From Coriobacteriales bacterium (GTDB lineage Bacteria; Actinomycetota; Coriobacteriia; Coriobacteriales; UMGS124): DNA of 40,644 nt. Below the pieces are notes generated by a model. The model ran no database searches. It had not been told where the DNA came from and worked only from the letters and a program-made list of their open reading frames with translations. The position numbers and the translations under genes are program-made. The stretch is from NCBI GenBank assembly GCA_017515595.1, contig JAFWFL010000127.1:1-40644 (forward strand), given 5' to 3'. Below, piece after piece: positions 5,866 to 34,095 of the stretch; within the stretch, counting starts at the first letter, position 1; every line of letters begins with the position of its first letter.

Positions 5866-7056
5866 TTAGCGGTCAAAAACCTCTTCCATACCCAAAAGGG
5901 CACGCATAGATTGTGCCATACCGGCAGGAGTACCTTTGAGGATGGCTACCGGGTTGAGGGGAATTTTCACAGCTTCACCACCTACAATATCTGTGGTAGT
6001 TACCGTATCCTCTACCTGCAACGCCTGAGGTCTGCAAATATTCTGGCAGCAAAGGCATTTAACGCAATCGCCGGCATAATGCTCAAGACCAATCGAACCG
6101 TCGGCGCAACTATACTTGGATATAGCGCCGGTTGGACAAAACGTTGCGCACATGCGGCATGAATTACATTTCTGGGTATCAATTTCTACATGTCCCCATA
6201 GGCGTGTTGCAAGAACAGCATCTTTGGGTTCTCCGAGTGCGGCAAGCGAATTGAGCAGGCGCTCGCGTCTGTCGGGAATAAAGTGAGGCAGAGTACCGTC
6301 TGCCATAACTTTGAGATAGTGAGGCTTTTCCTGGCTGCCAGAAGGAAGGCTGCCGGTTTGTTCCTGCGCCAACAGGGGTTCTTTTTGGCATGGTTTCTCG
6401 GCATTCTGGTGTTTACCATCGCGCAAAGATTCAGAGGCATAACCCTTGGGAAACTCGTCAATAAGCTCCACCGGAAACCGGACATTCCAGGCTTCAAGCA
6501 GGGTATTTGTGGTTTCGCATACTCTTTGTACAACTTCAAAACCTGTCTTATGCTCACATGTCTCGCACATTCCGTGGACGAGAAGTACGCGCTTCATGCC
6601 ATGCTCGGCCATGCCGGCCAAAAAACTTTCGTCAATGCGGCCCAGGCAAACTACCTGCACCCACGGAGCTTGAGGATCATCATACTGGATATCAATCCCG
6701 GCATTTTGGAGGACATTCTCGCATGCCGCAACAACAATTCTCCCATTTTTGATGCCAGCATTAACAGCGTGATTCATAAGCTCGGAGTCGCTTGGATTAA
6801 GAGCTTCAATAGCACAGGTAGGACATACCGTGGCGCAGGTCCCGCAGCCAATGCATTTATCTTTGTTAACTATGAGGCTGCCGTTTTGATATGCAATACA
6901 CCCTGATGTACAGGCATCTGCGCATTTTGCACACCCCGCGTTACGGTTGCGCACCATAATGCAGCGGTCCTGCCTCACGGCAATATTCGCATCACCCAAA
7001 TGACCAAGGGCATAATAGGTTGTTGCCGCAGTTGGAGATACCTCTTTAACCATCAT
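5866..7056 (-). CDS. Polyferredoxin with central MvhD/FlpD-like domain
   Basis: This is a 396-residue cytosolic iron-sulfur protein. Two ferredoxin-like clusters lie at the N-terminus (cysteines around GCAKCADAC, then CIGCGTCATVCP) and two at the C-terminus (CNSCRMCATFCP and CVKCLCCQNICRP), enough for about four [4Fe-4S] clusters. The central part has VVCLGRIDESF and VHGMCETCEHKTG, which resemble the MvhD/FlpD domain (PF02662) that passes electrons between heterodisulfide reductase or hydrogenase partners. The open frame reaches 7101, but the ATG at 7056 is preferred: it directly follows the upstream stop and GGAG is well placed. As the last gene of the molybdoenzyme run it may feed cytosolic electrons to the complex; this is inference. 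Confidence 0.8.
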   Translation of the reverse strand: MMVKEVSPTAATTYYALGHLGDANIAVRQDRCIMVRNRNAGCAKCADACTSGCIAYQNGSLIVNKDKCIGCGTCATVCPTCAIEALNPSDSELMNHAVNAGIKNGRIVVAACENVLQNAGIDIQYDDPQAPWVQVVCLGRIDESFLAGMAEHGMKRVLLVHGMCETCEHKTGFEVVQRVCETTNTLLEAWNVRFPVELIDEFPKGYASESLRDGKHQNAEKPCQKEPLLAQEQTGSLPSGSQEKPHYLKVMADGTLPHFIPDRRERLLNSLAALGEPKDAVLATRLWGHVEIDTQKCNSCRMCATFCPTGAISKYSCADGSIGLEHYAGDCVKCLCCQNICRPQALQVEDTVTTTDIVGGEAVKIPLNPVAILKGTPAGMAQSMRALLGMEEVFDR

Positions 7057-26106: not shown

Positions 26107-27099
26107 TTACAAGGTGTTATAAATATTTGCGATGTCAACAAACGGCCTGGTAAACTGTCTTGAGTAAAGCAGAAAACTCGAGATAAGTCCTACACTGATA
26201 ATACCCTGGGCTGCCATAACGCCGCCCGTAACGGCAACGGCAATAAACGAGAGGTTGTTGGTAACAGCGGCAAACGGCATGAGCAAACCGCTCCATACCT
26301 GGGCTTTCATAGCAACATCCAGGTACCGTTCATTGGCTTTTTCAAAGGTCTGCACCATAGAGGCTTCCCGGCTAAAAGCTTTTACGAGTGATATGCCGGA
26401 TATCGACTCCTCTATATGGGCGTTCATATTGCCCAAAGCTTCCTGTTGCTTGCGGAACAAGGGACGGGTATGACTGGTAATAAACTGCGCAAAGAGCAGA
26501 ATAAGCGATACAGCACAGAGCGCAACGCCCGTGAGAACAATGTTCTGGCTCAGCATGGCTATAAGAGCGCCGGTAACCGTGAATACATAGACCATAAGCT
26601 GGGCAAGTGACGTTGAGATAGTAGTCGAGATATTATCGACATCATTTGTGATACGGCTCATGAGCTCACCGTGCCGGTGCGTATCAAAAAACGACAGCGG
26701 CAGGTACTCGATAGCCCTAAAGAGCGCGAGTCTGATATCGCGAATGATGTGCTGTCCGGTAGTCACCATAAGACGCTGCTGCATAAGGCGCGAAAGCCAG
26801 TCGCCCAGGTATACCAGCATAAGCGCCAGCAGCAAGAGCGACGCAGGTTCGCGCAGCTCAATGGCATCGATAATGTGGCCAATCAAAAGCGGCGTTAAAA
26901 CCGGGGCAACCGAGACAAGCCCTGAGAGCGCAAAAACACAAAGCAAGTGTTTACGGTGATCTTTAGTGAGATACATAAGCCTGCGGAGTGTCCCGCGCGT
27001 GTCTTTGGGTTTTGCGTGCTCACCAAAGCGCATTTCGCGCATGTTTGGCCTGCCGCCAAGCGGCGCATTGGGGTTAGAGCCAAACGCATTAGCATTCAT
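26107..27099 (-). CDS. Transmembrane-domain fragment of the interrupted ABC exporter
   Basis: A 330-residue product would end at the TAA. It has a short hydrophilic N-terminal tail (residues 1-45) and six type-I exporter helices. As translated it would be a permease without its ATPase. Confidence 0.65.
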   Translation of the reverse strand: MNANAFGSNPNAPLGGRPNMREMRFGEHAKPKDTRGTLRRLMYLTKDHRKHLLCVFALSGLVSVAPVLTPLLIGHIIDAIELREPASLLLLALMLVYLGDWLSRLMQQRLMVTTGQHIIRDIRLALFRAIEYLPLSFFDTHRHGELMSRITNDVDNISTTISTSLAQLMVYVFTVTGALIAMLSQNIVLTGVALCAVSLILLFAQFITSHTRPLFRKQQEALGNMNAHIEESISGISLVKAFSREASMVQTFEKANERYLDVAMKAQVWSGLLMPFAAVTNNLSFIAVAVTGGVMAAQGIISVGLISSFLLYSRQFTRPFVDIANIYNTL

Positions 27100-28837
27100 G
27101 GCCCGGCTCCTCTCTGCCCATCTGCGATGCATAAATAGCCCGGTATGTAGCACAGTCCTTAAGCAGGCTGTCATGTGTTCCAAATCCCCGAACCTGACCG
27201 TTCTCAAGCACAAGGATGGCATCAGCATAACGCATGGTCGCGATGCGCTGGCTAATAAGTAACGTGGTTTGCCGGTGTGCCAATTGCCGCAAGCCTTCGA
27301 GAACTTTATGCTCGGTTGCACTGTCAAGTGCGCTTGTACAGTCATCCAGGATAAGCAGCCCGGGATCTTTAAGCAGAGCGCGCGCAAGACAGAGCCTCTG
27401 TTTTTGACCGCCCGAGAGGTTCACGCCTCCCTGACCAAGCAATGCTTTATAACCTTCCGGAAGCTGCTCAATAAATGAGGTCGCGCAAGCGATACCGCAG
27501 GCTTCCGTAAGCTCGGCAAGTGTCGCATCTTCATCACCCCAGCGAAGGTTGTCTTCTATGGTACCGCTAAAAAGCAAGGCGCTTTGATTCACAACAGCTA
27601 TGCTTGCACGGAGTTCGTGAGGGTCAAGTTGTGTGACATCACACCCGTTGAGAAGTACGGTTCCGTATGTTGCATCATAAAAGCGCGGCACCAAATTGAT
27701 TAAGGTTGTCTTTCCCGAACCGGTAGGCCCAATAATTCCAAGCGTGGTACCTGCCTCAATATTAAACGATACATGCGAAAGCGCAGGCTCGCTGCTGCCT
27801 GCATACGTAAAACCTACGTCCTTAAACGTGAGAGACAAACCAGCTGCGGTTTGCTGAGTGCTTGTATCTTTGAGGGAAACTGGGTTTGCAGCAGTTTGCT
27901 GAGCAGGGCTTTGCGTAAGTACTTCAGCAATGCGCTCAGAAGAAGTGAGCGCCCGCATGCCCTCAGAAAGCACGTTCCCAAAGAGACCAAGCGACATAAT
28001 GAGCTGGGTCATGTAATTGACAGCCGCCATAAGATGGCCAATTTGCCCGGGATCCTGCGCCTGGCTAAAATAGAGCAGGGCGAGAATACCGGCATTGGCC
28101 GTGAGATTGATAAGCGGTATAAACGTAGCGGAGATGTGCATCGCCTCGATCCCGCTCATGGCATAGTTCTCAGAGGCTTCGGTAAAACGGGCATCCTCGC
28201 GTTTCTCGGCCGCAAAGGCCTTTACCACGCGCACAGACTGAAGGTATTCCTGGGCAACGCCGTTAAGACGGTCAAGACTCTTTTGCAGTCTCGCATAACG
28301 TGGGCGGCTTAAGACGGTCATAAGAACAATAATCACAACGGTCAAAAGAATAACTACCACTACAACAGGCGCCATAGCAGGCATTTGATAAATAAGCAAC
28401 GCAAGCGCGCCTATGACGGTAAGCGGCATTTTGAATGATATCCTGCCAAGAGAGTTAATAAAGCGGGTAGCCACATTAACGTCATTGGTAAGCCTGGTCA
28501 CAAGTGAAGCGGTATGGAACTGGTCAATGTTCTCTTGTGAGAGCGTTTGTATATGAGAGTACAAGCTGCTGCGCAGGTCTCTGCCGGCATGCTGTGCCGC
28601 ATAGGTCGAGAAGTAATTGCGCGCTACCGCTGCCGCTGCACCGGCCAAAGCAATAGCCAACATGATAGCGCCATAATGAAGAATAGTTGGCACATCAGCC
28701 AGGAGCACACCCTTGTCTACCACATAAGACATAAAGGTAGGCTGGATTATCTCGGCAGCAGTCTCTAAAGCAACGCACGTTACCGCCACAAGGAAGGGCA
28801 AAAGGTATGGCCGCATATAACGAAGAATAAACCTCAT
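27089..28837 (-). CDS. Heterodimeric ABC exporter half with degenerate ATPase site
   Basis: This 582-residue type-I ABC exporter half has six membrane helices in about 1-310 and an ATPase domain from about 335. Walker A is GPTGSGKTT, the signature LSGGQKQR is canonical, and Walker B reads LLILDDCTS, with Asp where the catalytic Glu normally stands. With the partner's odd LSQGEQQ signature this gives one degenerate and one competent site, as in TM287/288-type heterodimers. Such exporters move drugs, lipids or peptides. The stop overlaps the partner's start by 11 bases. A likely -10 (TATACT) lies near 28940 on the minus strand beside a small ATAAG/CTTAT dyad. Confidence 0.9.
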   Translation of the reverse strand: MRFILRYMRPYLLPFLVAVTCVALETAAEIIQPTFMSYVVDKGVLLADVPTILHYGAIMLAIALAGAAAAVARNYFSTYAAQHAGRDLRSSLYSHIQTLSQENIDQFHTASLVTRLTNDVNVATRFINSLGRISFKMPLTVIGALALLIYQMPAMAPVVVVVILLTVVIIVLMTVLSRPRYARLQKSLDRLNGVAQEYLQSVRVVKAFAAEKREDARFTEASENYAMSGIEAMHISATFIPLINLTANAGILALLYFSQAQDPGQIGHLMAAVNYMTQLIMSLGLFGNVLSEGMRALTSSERIAEVLTQSPAQQTAANPVSLKDTSTQQTAAGLSLTFKDVGFTYAGSSEPALSHVSFNIEAGTTLGIIGPTGSGKTTLINLVPRFYDATYGTVLLNGCDVTQLDPHELRASIAVVNQSALLFSGTIEDNLRWGDEDATLAELTEACGIACATSFIEQLPEGYKALLGQGGVNLSGGQKQRLCLARALLKDPGLLILDDCTSALDSATEHKVLEGLRQLAHRQTTLLISQRIATMRYADAILVLENGQVRGFGTHDSLLKDCATYRAIYASQMGREEPGHEC

Positions 28838-29110
28838 GAGCAGCTGTCACCCACAAAAGTATGCGATTGGCACATATGCCTACCCGGGACGTACATGTCA
28901 TAACTGCTTTCTTACAAAGGAACATTGCTATAAGTATAGAACATAAGTCCTTATTAACCTCATGCTGCAGAATATCAATCATCAAATTCATTCTTTGAGG
29001 GTAGTTATCTACCAAAACGCGTATGTAGACTACAGATAGTTCAGAACGAGACGCAAGCTTCTCTGACAAGTGAAAAGATAAGAATTGGGGCTTCTCGACC
29101 AGAGATAGAT

Positions 29111-29385
29111 GGCAAAAAGGTGACGATTGGTTGTCTCAGAGCCAAAATCTGACTTCTCAGCCACGTGATTTTGGCAAAAAGGTGAGGATCCGTTGTCTCA
29201 AGTAGACACTGACTCAGATATTGTTTTTGCAACAATCAATATAATGCCTGGTATATGTTTATTACACTATTAAAGTAAATCACAAAAATTGATTCACTGA
29301 CAACGAATCCTCACCTTTTTGCCATCTCGACCTTGCTAAGAAGTCCGAATGGACTCCTCAGACAACCAATCGTCACCTTTTTGCC
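29111..29385. repeat. Symmetric four-unit repeat element (two direct, two inverted units)
   Basis: Four copies of a roughly 26-base unit that begins GGCAAAAAGGTGA and ends GTTGTC. Units at 29111-29136 and 29173-29198 read forward; units at 29298-29323 and 29361-29385 read in reverse. The outer pair matches perfectly over 25 bases (GGTGACGATT version) and the inner pair nearly so (GGTGAGGAT version). Spacing is the same on both sides: 62 bases between forward starts and 62 between reverse ends. Inter-unit segments share GACTTCT, suggesting a degenerate 62-base period. The AT-rich centre (29199-29297) has no gene. It could be a MITE-like element, a protein-binding array or a large cruciform. 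Confidence 0.85.
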
Positions 29386-29430
29386 AAGTGAATCATACCA
29401 ATGAGGCAGACTTTTATGACATGGGGTCAA

Positions 29431-29484
29431 ATAACACAGGGTCGTGCTTTCTGCTGTATGACAAAAAACACGACCCTGTGTTAT
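29431..29484 (-). terminator. 16-bp hairpin at the end of the suf genes, beside the dispersed motif
   Basis: Perfect 16-bp arms ATAACACAGGGTCGTG (29431-29446) and CACGACCCTGTGTTAT (29469-29484) lie 24 bases after the stop of the sufB-like gene. Only a weak T-run follows on the minus strand, so it may terminate or protect the transcript. A partial copy of the dispersed motif, ATGACATGGGGTC, lies at 29416-29428. Confidence 0.6.
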
Positions 29485-29507: not shown

Positions 29508-30470
29508 TTAGCTCAGGAAGTCCTCGAGAATTTGCTGCTCAGCTTCTTCTTCGCTCAGGCCTAAAGTCATGAGCTTGATGATCTGCTCGCCGGCAATTTT
29601 GCCAATGGCGGCTTCGTGAACCAGCTGGGCGTCTTCTGAGTCTGCTTCGATGCCCGGAACGCTGCGTACTTTGGCATTGCCCATAATAATAGCGTCGCAC
29701 TGAACGTGGCCTCGGCAGTCTGCCTTGCCTACTACGAGCGGGGCAAATATCTGGACCGAGTCATCCATGGCAACCGAGCGGCTAATAACCTGAACGCTCG
29801 AGCTGTCGCCTTCGAGCTCAATCTTGACGTTGCTCGTGGCTTTTTGGGACTCTGAAGTCTTGAGCTTCTCGGTAATGGTGAGTTTTGCGCCTTCTGCTAG
29901 GTAGCAATCTGTATCGCGAACAGTATCGGTTACGCCCTCGATCTGTACCATAACCATTTCCATCTGGGTATTCTCGCCCATATGGACCTCGGTCCTCGGG
30001 TTCAGAATGCGGTCACCGGAGCCCGAACCCTCGCCGTAGTGCTTCTCGACATAGACAACCTTAGAGCCCTTCTCAAGGAAGAAGCGGTGGATGCCGTCGT
30101 GCTCGGAGGTTTCGCAGCCGTCATTGTGGATGCCGCAACCGGCTACAATGTAAACGTCAGAGCCCGCGCCAATATAAAAGTCATTGTAAACCTTGTCATT
30201 CAGGCCGGTCTCGGTAAGAACAACAGGAATGTGCACCTGCTCGCCAATAGTTCCCGGCTTGACCTTAATGTCAATGCCCGGGACATCAGTCTTGGTTTCG
30301 ATAACAATGTTCTCTGAGTTGCGTCGGGCTGCCAGGTGTCCGTCTTTGCGAATGTTGACCGCACCCTGGACTTCGCTTGCCTTCATGTCGGCAATAACAC
30401 CAAGCATAGCGCTTGTGATATCATCTATCTGGCTTTGATCAAGCGCGCTCTGTGATTGAATCTCGCTCAT
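29508..30470 (-). CDS. sufB: SufB/SufD-family scaffold protein, short SmsB-like form
   Basis: This 320-residue protein has the right-handed beta-helix core of the SufB/SufD family (about 75-275) and a C-terminal helical part with VHEAAIGKIAGEQI and GLSEEEAEQQIL. With SufC it assembles Fe-S clusters in the cytosol. It is much shorter than E. coli SufB (about 495 residues) and lacks its N-terminal part, as in the minimal SmsC-SmsB system of archaea and some anaerobic bacteria. The start ATG at 30470 overlaps the TGA of sufC (ATGA), with GAGGAGGG upstream. No separate sufD, sufU or sufS follows. Confidence 0.85.
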   Translation of the reverse strand: MSEIQSQSALDQSQIDDITSAMLGVIADMKASEVQGAVNIRKDGHLAARRNSENIVIETKTDVPGIDIKVKPGTIGEQVHIPVVLTETGLNDKVYNDFYIGAGSDVYIVAGCGIHNDGCETSEHDGIHRFFLEKGSKVVYVEKHYGEGSGSGDRILNPRTEVHMGENTQMEMVMVQIEGVTDTVRDTDCYLAEGAKLTITEKLKTSESQKATSNVKIELEGDSSSVQVISRSVAMDDSVQIFAPLVVGKADCRGHVQCDAIIMGNAKVRSVPGIEADSEDAQLVHEAAIGKIAGEQIIKLMTLGLSEEEAEQQILEDFLS

Positions 30471-31264
30471 CGTACACCCTCCTCGGTAAGACTCCACTGT
30501 CCAATGGTTGTTTCTACCGCAGCCATACCGCAGGTAGGATTCTGGGGCATGCGAATCATAAGCGTGGGCATCATTTCTTCACGCGGACCTTCGCGGTCAA
30601 GCTGGCCCTCTTTAATGACAACAATTCGGTCTGCGATTTGCATAATGCGCTCTTGGTGCGAAATGATAACGAGAGCATGGTCAGGCTGAGCGTGATGGAA
30701 CTGCAGGAAGGTATCAATGAGCTTGTCAAAGCTCCACAGGTCAATGCCGGCCTCGGGCTCGTCAAAAATGGCAACACGGGGATTACGCGCCAGCACGCTT
30801 GCGATCTCAATGCGCTTAAGCTCGCCGCCAGAGAGGCTCTTGTCAACCTCGCGCTGCAGGTAATTGCCACTGCAAAGACCTACTGCCGAGAGATACTCGT
30901 TGCACTCGTTGGTTGAAATCTTGCGGCCGCTCGCAAGGGTAATAAGCTTTCGCACCTTCATGCCCTTAAAGCGCGCGGGGGTCTGGAATCCGTAACCAAT
31001 GCCAAGACGTGCACGCTCGTCAATAGGCTTTTCTGTAATATCCTCGCCGTCAAGCAAGAACCGGCCGCTCGTGGGCTTCTCGATACCCATAATTAAGCGG
31101 GCAAGCGTTGACTTGCCGCCGCCGTTTGGGCCGGTAATAACCGTTATCTTGCCCTGCTCAATATCGAGCGAAAAATCGTTGATAATGCGTTTGCCCGGAA
31201 TCTCCCGTCCGTCTGCACTCTTACTTGCCGGAGCATCGAACGTAATATGCTTAAGTTCGAGCAT
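30467..31264 (-). CDS. sufC: SufC Fe-S cluster assembly ATPase
   Basis: This 265-residue soluble ABC ATPase drives the SufB-type scaffold. Walker A GPNGGGKST, signature LSGGELKRIEIA and Walker B VAIFDEPEAGIDLW (the SufC-typical PEAGID) are all present. The frame runs to 31336, but ATG 31264 (MLELKHI) has GGAGG four bases upstream and matches family N-termini. The gene is coupled to the sufB-like gene by a four-base overlap. Together they form a two-gene operon serving the Fe-S-rich enzymes around it. I see no clear Rrf2-type operator upstream. Confidence 0.93.
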   Translation of the reverse strand: MLELKHITFDAPASKSADGREIPGKRIINDFSLDIEQGKITVITGPNGGGKSTLARLIMGIEKPTSGRFLLDGEDITEKPIDERARLGIGYGFQTPARFKGMKVRKLITLASGRKISTNECNEYLSAVGLCSGNYLQREVDKSLSGGELKRIEIASVLARNPRVAIFDEPEAGIDLWSFDKLIDTFLQFHHAQPDHALVIISHQERIMQIADRIVVIKEGQLDREGPREEMMPTLMIRMPQNPTCGMAAVETTIGQWSLTEEGVR

Positions 31265-32400: not shown

Positions 32401-34095
32401 ATGAACGCAATGGTAAACCGTCGTCAGTTCATCGCCGGAGCATCTGCGGTTGCAGCTGCTTCTGCTTTGGCCGGAACAGCCGCGAGCGCTCTCGCAGAAG
32501 AAGCTCCTGCCGCCTCCGAGTGGCCGGCCTGGCTGGGCGAGCCTCCTGCAATCAAGGACGAAGACTGTGTTGAAACCATTGACTGCGAAGTATTGGTTAT
32601 TGGTGCCGGTTGCTCGGGTATTTTCGCAGCCAACTTTGCCGCTATGGAAGGCGCCAAGACCATTCTTATTGAGAAGTATCCCGCCGGTACCGGCGTGCGT
32701 GGCTCGGCCATTGGTGCGGTAAACTCAAAGAAGCAGCAGGAAGCCGGCGTTTATATTGATCCCAACGAGATAGCCAATGACTTCGCTCATTATTCACTTA
32801 ACAATTCAAGTCTGGACCTGCACCGTTTGTGGACTGACAACTCCGCAGAAGCTGTTGAGTGGTACTGCAGCGTCGTCGAGGGTGTTGAGCAGGTTCGCGT
32901 TGACCTCGAGTGGAATATGCCGCAGGAAGAGACCCGCTATAAGTGCTGGCCAACCGGTCATGGCTCTATGGTTGACGACGGCAGCGTAGGTAAGGATGAC
33001 GCAAGTGCCGAGGGCATTACTTACCGCCTGCTTACCGAGGCTTTTGCCGCTCATGAGAATGCAACCTTTATGACCGAGACAGGACTTGAGTGCCTTATTA
33101 AGGATGGTGAGCGCGTTGTTGGTATCTACGCTACTAATGCTGATGGCAATTATCTGCGTATTAATGCTTCTAAGGGTGTAATTGTTGCAACCGGCGGTTA
33201 TGCCACCAACTTTGATATGTACCCCGCATTACAGAGTGAGACCATGAAGAGCCTCACGGGCGTTGTTCCCTGGCCGTTCTTCAATGCACAAGGCCAGGGC
33301 ATCAAGGCATGCATGTGGGCAGGCGCCGCAAAGGACGCCGTTCCTACCTCTATGGTATTCGACCGTGGCATTATGCGTCCTGACCAGGAAATTGGTAATC
33401 CCTTTGCCTTTGACTTTGACTACTTCCATGCTGCAACTCAGCCATTCCTCAAGGTTGACTCAACCGGCAAGCGTATCACCAACGAGTCAAGCCCTTACGA
33501 CTTCCTCATTCACGCTGCAGCAAACCGCGGTAATCGCGCATGGTATAACATTTGGGATGCCAACTGGCCAACCGACATTGACCGCTTCCACACCATTGGA
33601 TGCTCAACGCTCATCAAGCGCGAAGGCACCAACCAGATGGATCCGGAAGGCATCGAAGGAACCGCTGCTATCATTGACGATTTTGTTGCCCGCGGCTACA
33701 TTGTTAAGACCGATACCCTCGAGGAACTCGCGGATGCTTTTGGTTTCGATAAGGAAACCTTCCTTGCCACCGTCGAACAGTACAACGGATTCTATGATGC
33801 TCAGTTTGACGCCCAGTACGGCAAAGAGCCGTTCCGTCTTTCTGAGATCCGCACTGCTCCGTTCTATGGCGTAAAGCTTGGCGGTCTTTTGCTCTGCACA
33901 CTCGACGGCATTAAGATCAACACCAAGTTCCAGGCTCTGAAGGCAGACGGCACTCCCATTGAGGGTCTCTATGTCATTGGTAACGACTCCGGCAACTACT
34001 ACTGCGGCACCTATCCCAACCTTGCCGCAGGCGCTAACGCAGGCCGTTGCGTAACCTTTGGCATGCTCTGCGGCCGCCAGGTAGCCAATCTCTAA
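32401..34095 (+). CDS. Tat-exported FAD-dependent reductase (fumarate-reductase-like)
   Basis: This 564-residue exported flavoprotein has a Tat leader NRRQFIAG (6-13) and cleavage expected near ALAEE 34. The FAD loop GAGCSG is at 68-73, and a C-terminal FRD-type block has DGIKINTKFQALKADGTPIE, LYVIGNDSGNYYCGTYPNL and AGANAGRCVTFG. It lacks an FMN-binding domain and a nearby cytochrome or regulator gene, unlike the pair at 18282-21867. Its sequence is only distantly similar to those two, so a different substrate is likely. GAAAGGA precedes the ATG. It is monocistronic, ended by the hairpin at 34117. Confidence 0.88.
   Translation: MNAMVNRRQFIAGASAVAAASALAGTAASALAEEAPAASEWPAWLGEPPAIKDEDCVETIDCEVLVIGAGCSGIFAANFAAMEGAKTILIEKYPAGTGVRGSAIGAVNSKKQQEAGVYIDPNEIANDFAHYSLNNSSLDLHRLWTDNSAEAVEWYCSVVEGVEQVRVDLEWNMPQEETRYKCWPTGHGSMVDDGSVGKDDASAEGITYRLLTEAFAAHENATFMTETGLECLIKDGERVVGIYATNADGNYLRINASKGVIVATGGYATNFDMYPALQSETMKSLTGVVPWPFFNAQGQGIKACMWAGAAKDAVPTSMVFDRGIMRPDQEIGNPFAFDFDYFHAATQPFLKVDSTGKRITNESSPYDFLIHAAANRGNRAWYNIWDANWPTDIDRFHTIGCSTLIKREGTNQMDPEGIEGTAAIIDDFVARGYIVKTDTLEELADAFGFDKETFLATVEQYNGFYDAQFDAQYGKEPFRLSEIRTAPFYGVKLGGLLLCTLDGIKINTKFQALKADGTPIEGLYVIGNDSGNYYCGTYPNLAAGANAGRCVTFGMLCGRQVANL

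Follow-up and report, generated by a model that had tools for sequence, protein, structure and literature searches.

A dispersed family of dyad-symmetric, helically spaced intergenic repeat arrays in a Coriobacteriales bacterium

A block of inverted repeats in the window (the whole 40,644-nucleotide stretch that was analysed, contig C27 of a 3.3 Mb Coriobacteriales assembly in 134 contigs) belongs to a family of 20 to 22 intergenic elements, and is tentatively read as one copy of a dispersed, dyad-symmetric, helically phased, non-coding array of putative protein-binding sites. Such arrays are most likely chromosomal docking or architectural sites for a nucleoprotein, rather than promoters, RNAs or coding elements. 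The whole family is known from this one fragmented assembly, which was examined by searches and targeted stretches.

The window block contains four units of 27 bp with start-to-start distances of 62, 126 and 62 bp, and a search with GGCAAAAAGGTGASGATNNGTTGTC at 2 mismatches returned 4 matches in the window compared to 0.00 in 100 shuffles. From left to right, the block comprises a shoulder, CTTCTCGACCAGAGATAGA (29091–29109, + strand), that forms an outer half-module delimited by flank information content and by BLAST boundaries between elements; the outer unit L2, TGGCAAAAAGGTGACGATTGGTTGTCT (29110–29136, +); a 35-nt spacer of diverged sequence and fixed length (29137–29171); the inner unit L1 (29172–29198, +); a 99-nt AT-rich core of class I with its ‘A’ half on the left (29199–29297; alignment A1 and core identity table); the inverted inner unit R1 (29298–29324, −); a second 35-nt spacer (29325–29359); and the inverted outer unit R2 (29360–29386, −), identical to L2. 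The best-conserved stretch of the core lies around ATAATGCCTGGTAWATG..TATTACACTATTAAA (alignment A1, core identity table), and its midpoint is CCTG (29247–29250; consensus CCWG, columns 76–79 of 153 in A1). Both outer units carry GATTGG, while the inner pair has GAGGAT in common, followed by CC or TC. The first-pass annotation had described two direct and two inverted copies at an equal spacing of 62, with a perfect outer pair and an inner pair bearing its own variant, around a gene-free centre, and this description holds with units starting at 29110, 29172, 29298 and 29360. The block is free of genes as a whole and lies between the start, at 28837, of an ABC transporter gene (27089–28837, −; Pfam ABC_membrane and ABC_tran) and the end, at 29508, of the next gene (29508–30497, −), which we take from its sequence to be of the SufB/D family and to which a terminator-like hairpin at 29435–29480 belongs.

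The unit is dispersed through the genome; a search with TGGCAAAAAGGTGANGATNNGTTGTCT at ≤3 mismatches found 85 places, compared to 0 for the reversed control, so that the unit is not confined to this block. This is the opposite of the outcome, a unit occurring only here, that the first-pass annotation would have counted against a functional or mobile element. A sequence model of unit, core and unit recovered 19 complete cores and 2 partial cores at contig ends, and one further arm terminates contig C94; the partial pieces may belong together, giving an element count of 20 to 22. Both arms are assembled in 18 arrays, and the dyad geometry is the same in all 18, though their spacers and cores have diverged. 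Each array consists of direct units spaced at 62/63 bp, the 99-bp core and then inverted units, with 1–4 units in an arm and 126 bp from one arm to the other (125 in one array); spacing exceptions within arms (rare 61s and one 65) occur at decayed outer units. In alignment A1, the middle of the core and the centre of each inner unit are separated by 63 bp, which places the core on the 63-bp grid of the arms; the whole element thus lies on a single grid of about six helical turns. Of the two origins initially offered for this symmetry, a structure kept two-fold symmetric agrees with the shared geometry, while duplication by inversion is not needed, as the arms are generally not mirror copies; mirrored units resemble each other little more than non-mirrored ones do (89% vs 86%, 18 elements). 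Solitary units, without a partner array, number only two (L029 1976 and L031 1183), one from each of two unit families.

The second of these families occurs in three arrays (C91, C80 and C29) built of the unit TGGCACAGAAGAGACGATGGAGAGTCT with identical geometry and with cores still homologous to those of the first family. Common to both unit families are a GAC-N8-GTC pattern and a TGGCA start. On C91 (L017 1947–2619), a second-family array and then a first-family array stand in succession; their outermost units are exactly 126 bp apart, so that the grid runs on from one array to the next. That another unit sequence occupies the same frame suggests that the putative binding protein has a paralogue.

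Conservation is unevenly distributed within the arrays. First-family units have a mean identity of 88%, while the internal spacers have an identity of 48%, yet measure 35/36 nt in 59 of 63 cases. Among the cores, class I and class II can be distinguished, besides two outliers and the cores of the second family; identity drops to about 40% between classes, yet 18 of the 19 aligned cores are 99 nt long and internal gaps are restricted to the remaining one. Outside the outermost unit, conservation extends for about 19 nt and then fades (flank information content). Diverging spacers and cores at fixed lengths, together with conserved units, are what a phased protein-binding array predicts. Inner units carry fewer private changes than cores, by about fivefold in class I (singleton substitutions 0.9% vs 4.6%, p about 3e-4 for copies that are related) and about threefold in class II (2.5% vs 8.2%, p about 3e-4, likewise for related copies). 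With all 19 elements pooled, the unit-versus-core difference in singletons loses its significance (p = 0.11), since few singletons remain where the splits are deep. As the inner units have fewer singletons than the cores, the units and their spacing look to be under constraint in the resident copies, judging from these substitution patterns, with the intervening sequence largely free to change. Part of this contrast could also arise from short-tract gene conversion among units, which could underlie a share of the conservation of the units, though not that of the lengths.

Array neighbours belong to unrelated gene families in convergent, divergent and tandem contexts, including FtsH, pyruvate:ferredoxin oxidoreductase, RimP, glycogen phosphorylase, MurT, aldehyde dehydrogenase, cation efflux, TerC, LuxR/LysR/TetR/GntR regulators and FAD_binding_2 flavoproteins, and no gene theme or orientation common to the array flanks was found. 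Within 2–3 kb of arrays there are often genes for twin-arginine-type flavoproteins and for membrane LuxR regulators, as in the window (32401–34095) and at several other arrays (L009, L010, L015, L017, L022, L023, L024), though such genes may simply be common in this genome. A promoter or operator region acting in both directions on the flanking genes would fit the AT-rich core with its TATAAT-like conserved stretch and the position of the window copy upstream of the ABC transporter gene, but it is improbable given that the window copy has no sigma-70-like pair, that several arrays sit between convergent genes and that the neighbours lack a theme.

Identical adjacent 62/63-bp repeats in L011, L019 and L024 indicate that arms grow by tandem duplication, and a subfamily with 92–96% identical cores represents recent spread. 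At L030 (2189–2270), an array flank carries an 82-bp copy of the 3′ end of an aldehyde dehydrogenase gene, the source of which flanks array L015, 6.6 kb away (90% identity over 109 bp including a unit), and at least one copying event therefore took flanking DNA along. As the main alternative to an architectural site, the arrays may be MITE- or foldback-like non-autonomous elements, the ends being arrays of transposase sites, the core a remnant and the transposase supplied in trans. Consistent with this are the dispersed intergenic copies, the subfamily cores of up to 96% identity, two cognate unit families such as diverged transposases would give, and an inverted arrangement with a total length of <500 bp; the clustering of arrays in places (3.4, 6.6 and 0.4 kb apart) and the subfamily with near-identical cores fit a mobile element better than an architectural site. 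Prokaryotic MITEs share with the arrays a length of <500 bp, an AT-rich core, inverted ends and an intergenic location (PMC10969869). Unlike MITEs, the arrays have no insertion-site direct repeats, no fixed terminus and several internal units per arm (PMC10969869). Target-site duplications, for which the first-pass annotation had proposed a test, were found in none of 15 elements, the longest word shared by the two flanks averaging 5.2 nt compared to 5.3 nt for mismatched flanks. No sharp terminus was found for the arrays, and with 1 to 4 units per arm there are no inverted repeats of fixed terminus; no arms with a gene between them, as in an autonomous copy, were seen among all unit places genome-wide, and the Y1_Tnp genes examined yielded no transposase partner for the arrays. 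In addition, a precise transposase would not have carried the 82 bp of neighbouring gene 3′ end found at L030, and the units of resident copies look constrained. The preference for a site kept by the host over a mobile element rests mainly on the unit-versus-core contrast in related copies and on the missing marks of transposition.

Movement by the genome's own RAYT-like transposases, as a REP/REPIN/BIME-type element, is quite improbable. The genome does contain six Y1_Tnp (RAYT-like) genes (C105:19329, C122:12539, C42:20266, C4:10958, C4:23452 and C16:13761; L125–L128) with open frames of 245–308 aa, none adjoining an array. At four of the six loci, with about 1.5 kb of flanks, the best unit score was 18/27, equal to background, and no unit place lies near the other two genes on their contigs. 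REPINs and BIMEs resemble the arrays as many-copy inverted extragenic repeats, with RAYT-like genes in the genome (PMC3116915, PMC2817692). Unlike in those systems, the unit here is not a palindromic hairpin, GAC-N8-GTC being the only conserved pairing (3 pairs, no compensatory change); the phasing is 62.5/126 bp; and no unit occurs near the RAYT-like genes that were read.

An RNA-level element (a long hairpin, double-stranded RNA or terminator) is very unlikely. The window copy does fold to −135 kcal/mol (z −12), but such stability is expected of any inverted array, the aligned repeat has no covarying pairs and no Rfam match, and its length is kept in DNA turns; mirrored spacers were not significantly more alike than spacers from different elements, matching no better than chance (p = 0.10). 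Local spacer hairpins (gagaaaCCCgtttGGGcttctc), convincing by eye, were rejected on finding no conserved pairing in the alignment. An asymmetric core flanked by inverted 27-bp repeats could also act as an invertible switch, with recombination between the inverted units; this is the most improbable of the readings, as the orientation of the core relative to the adjacent spacer types is kept in nearly all elements (exception, L016). A CRISPR array was rejected because the spacers are mutually homologous, the array flips orientation and the tested neighbours are not cas genes.

Among known systems, the arrays are nearest to the modular interspersed-repeat class (BOX, BrickBuilt and BIME), while the testable defining features of MITEs and REPINs were absent. 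BOX of Streptococcus pneumoniae is, like the arrays, a modular, interspersed and intergenic repeat whose tandem modules vary in number and which has no proven transposase (PMC3049150). In BOX, middle modules lie between distinct end modules; here, modules run inward from both sides as inverted arms with evident tandem gain, the special module is a central core, the helical phasing is strict and no conserved RNA structure was found. BrickBuilt of Porphyromonas gingivalis, a MITE/minisatellite with 23-nt units placed head to tail without spacers between a leader and a tail, is similar in its about 19 intergenic copies, narrow host range and tandem units within a small repeat (PMC4596501), and differs from the 27-bp units, 35-bp spacers and two opposed arms found here. 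What is new about the arrays is that they unite opposed arms, a spacing locked to the grid, a core of fixed length that falls on that grid, and two unit specificities.

Searches beyond this assembly returned no copy of the family. The sequence model R1, applied to 150 genomes (its own and 149 relatives), matched in its own genome only; the exact unit pattern had no match in GTDB contigs or IMG/VR viral contigs, and distant blastn found no copy in phages and plasmids. A detector of the architecture gave only low-complexity hits in 505 kb of two same-family genomes, and three hits in 896 kb of loci from other genomes, the best in Adlercreutzia hattorii with a period of 62. That hit (L056 11452–11625) consists of two direct copies spaced 62 bp apart and an inverted copy, placed around a hairpin; as a second array family it was rejected, being a single locus in that genome. 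The relatives offered no site orthologous to that of the array; the nearest ABC transporter matches were 31–46% identical, and the best matches of the SufB/D-family protein had 59–67% identity, mostly in Eggerthellaceae and other Coriobacteriia. Judged by the SufB/D-family protein, the host seems to represent a deep branch of the Coriobacteriales that has no close relatives in the collections. For a basic chromosomal function, it is unusual that none of the relatives searched has a copy of the family.

A 9-mer, TTCTCGGCA, is abundant in the same genome (767 occurrences vs 38 for the reversed word), apparently inside genes too, with window examples at 6395, 14517, 16767, 21647 and 34498 (+). 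Twenty-nine inverted pairs of the form CCGAGAARCCC..GGGYTTCTCGG make hairpins, and array shoulders contain CTTCTCGGC, which is related to the 9-mer. The word resembles a sequence of the DNA-uptake type, which one would not expect here; it was not enriched in the sampled same-family genomes and occurred 0–1 times per locus in the other Coriobacteriia loci checked. A literature search on such arrays or on uptake-type words in Coriobacteriia found nothing matching.

If the arrays are indeed kept by the host as protein-binding sites, a sequence-specific protein would occupy each 27-bp unit and the ~19-bp shoulder beside it. The step of six helical turns from one unit to the next would place the bound proteins on one face of the DNA, and with the two arms facing a fixed-length AT-rich core whose midpoint falls on the same grid, the assembled complex would have two-fold symmetry and could form DNA loops or bridges. 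Protein binding, the symmetric assembly and the architectural role are each what we infer from these arrangements. It is conceivable, though rather doubtful, that the arrays constitute an undescribed class: a two-fold symmetric nucleoprotein platform on a six-turn grid, with at least two specificities, which selection maintains at about 20 loci whatever their neighbours.

The usual explanation for interspersed bacterial repeats is that they are either decaying remains of mobile elements or RNA hairpins. A family in which the sequence between sites drifts while helical-turn spacing and dyad symmetry are kept points instead to a defined nucleoprotein. If the protein is found, the some 20 natural copies and two specificities would provide a clean test between a selfish element and a chromosome-organising site.
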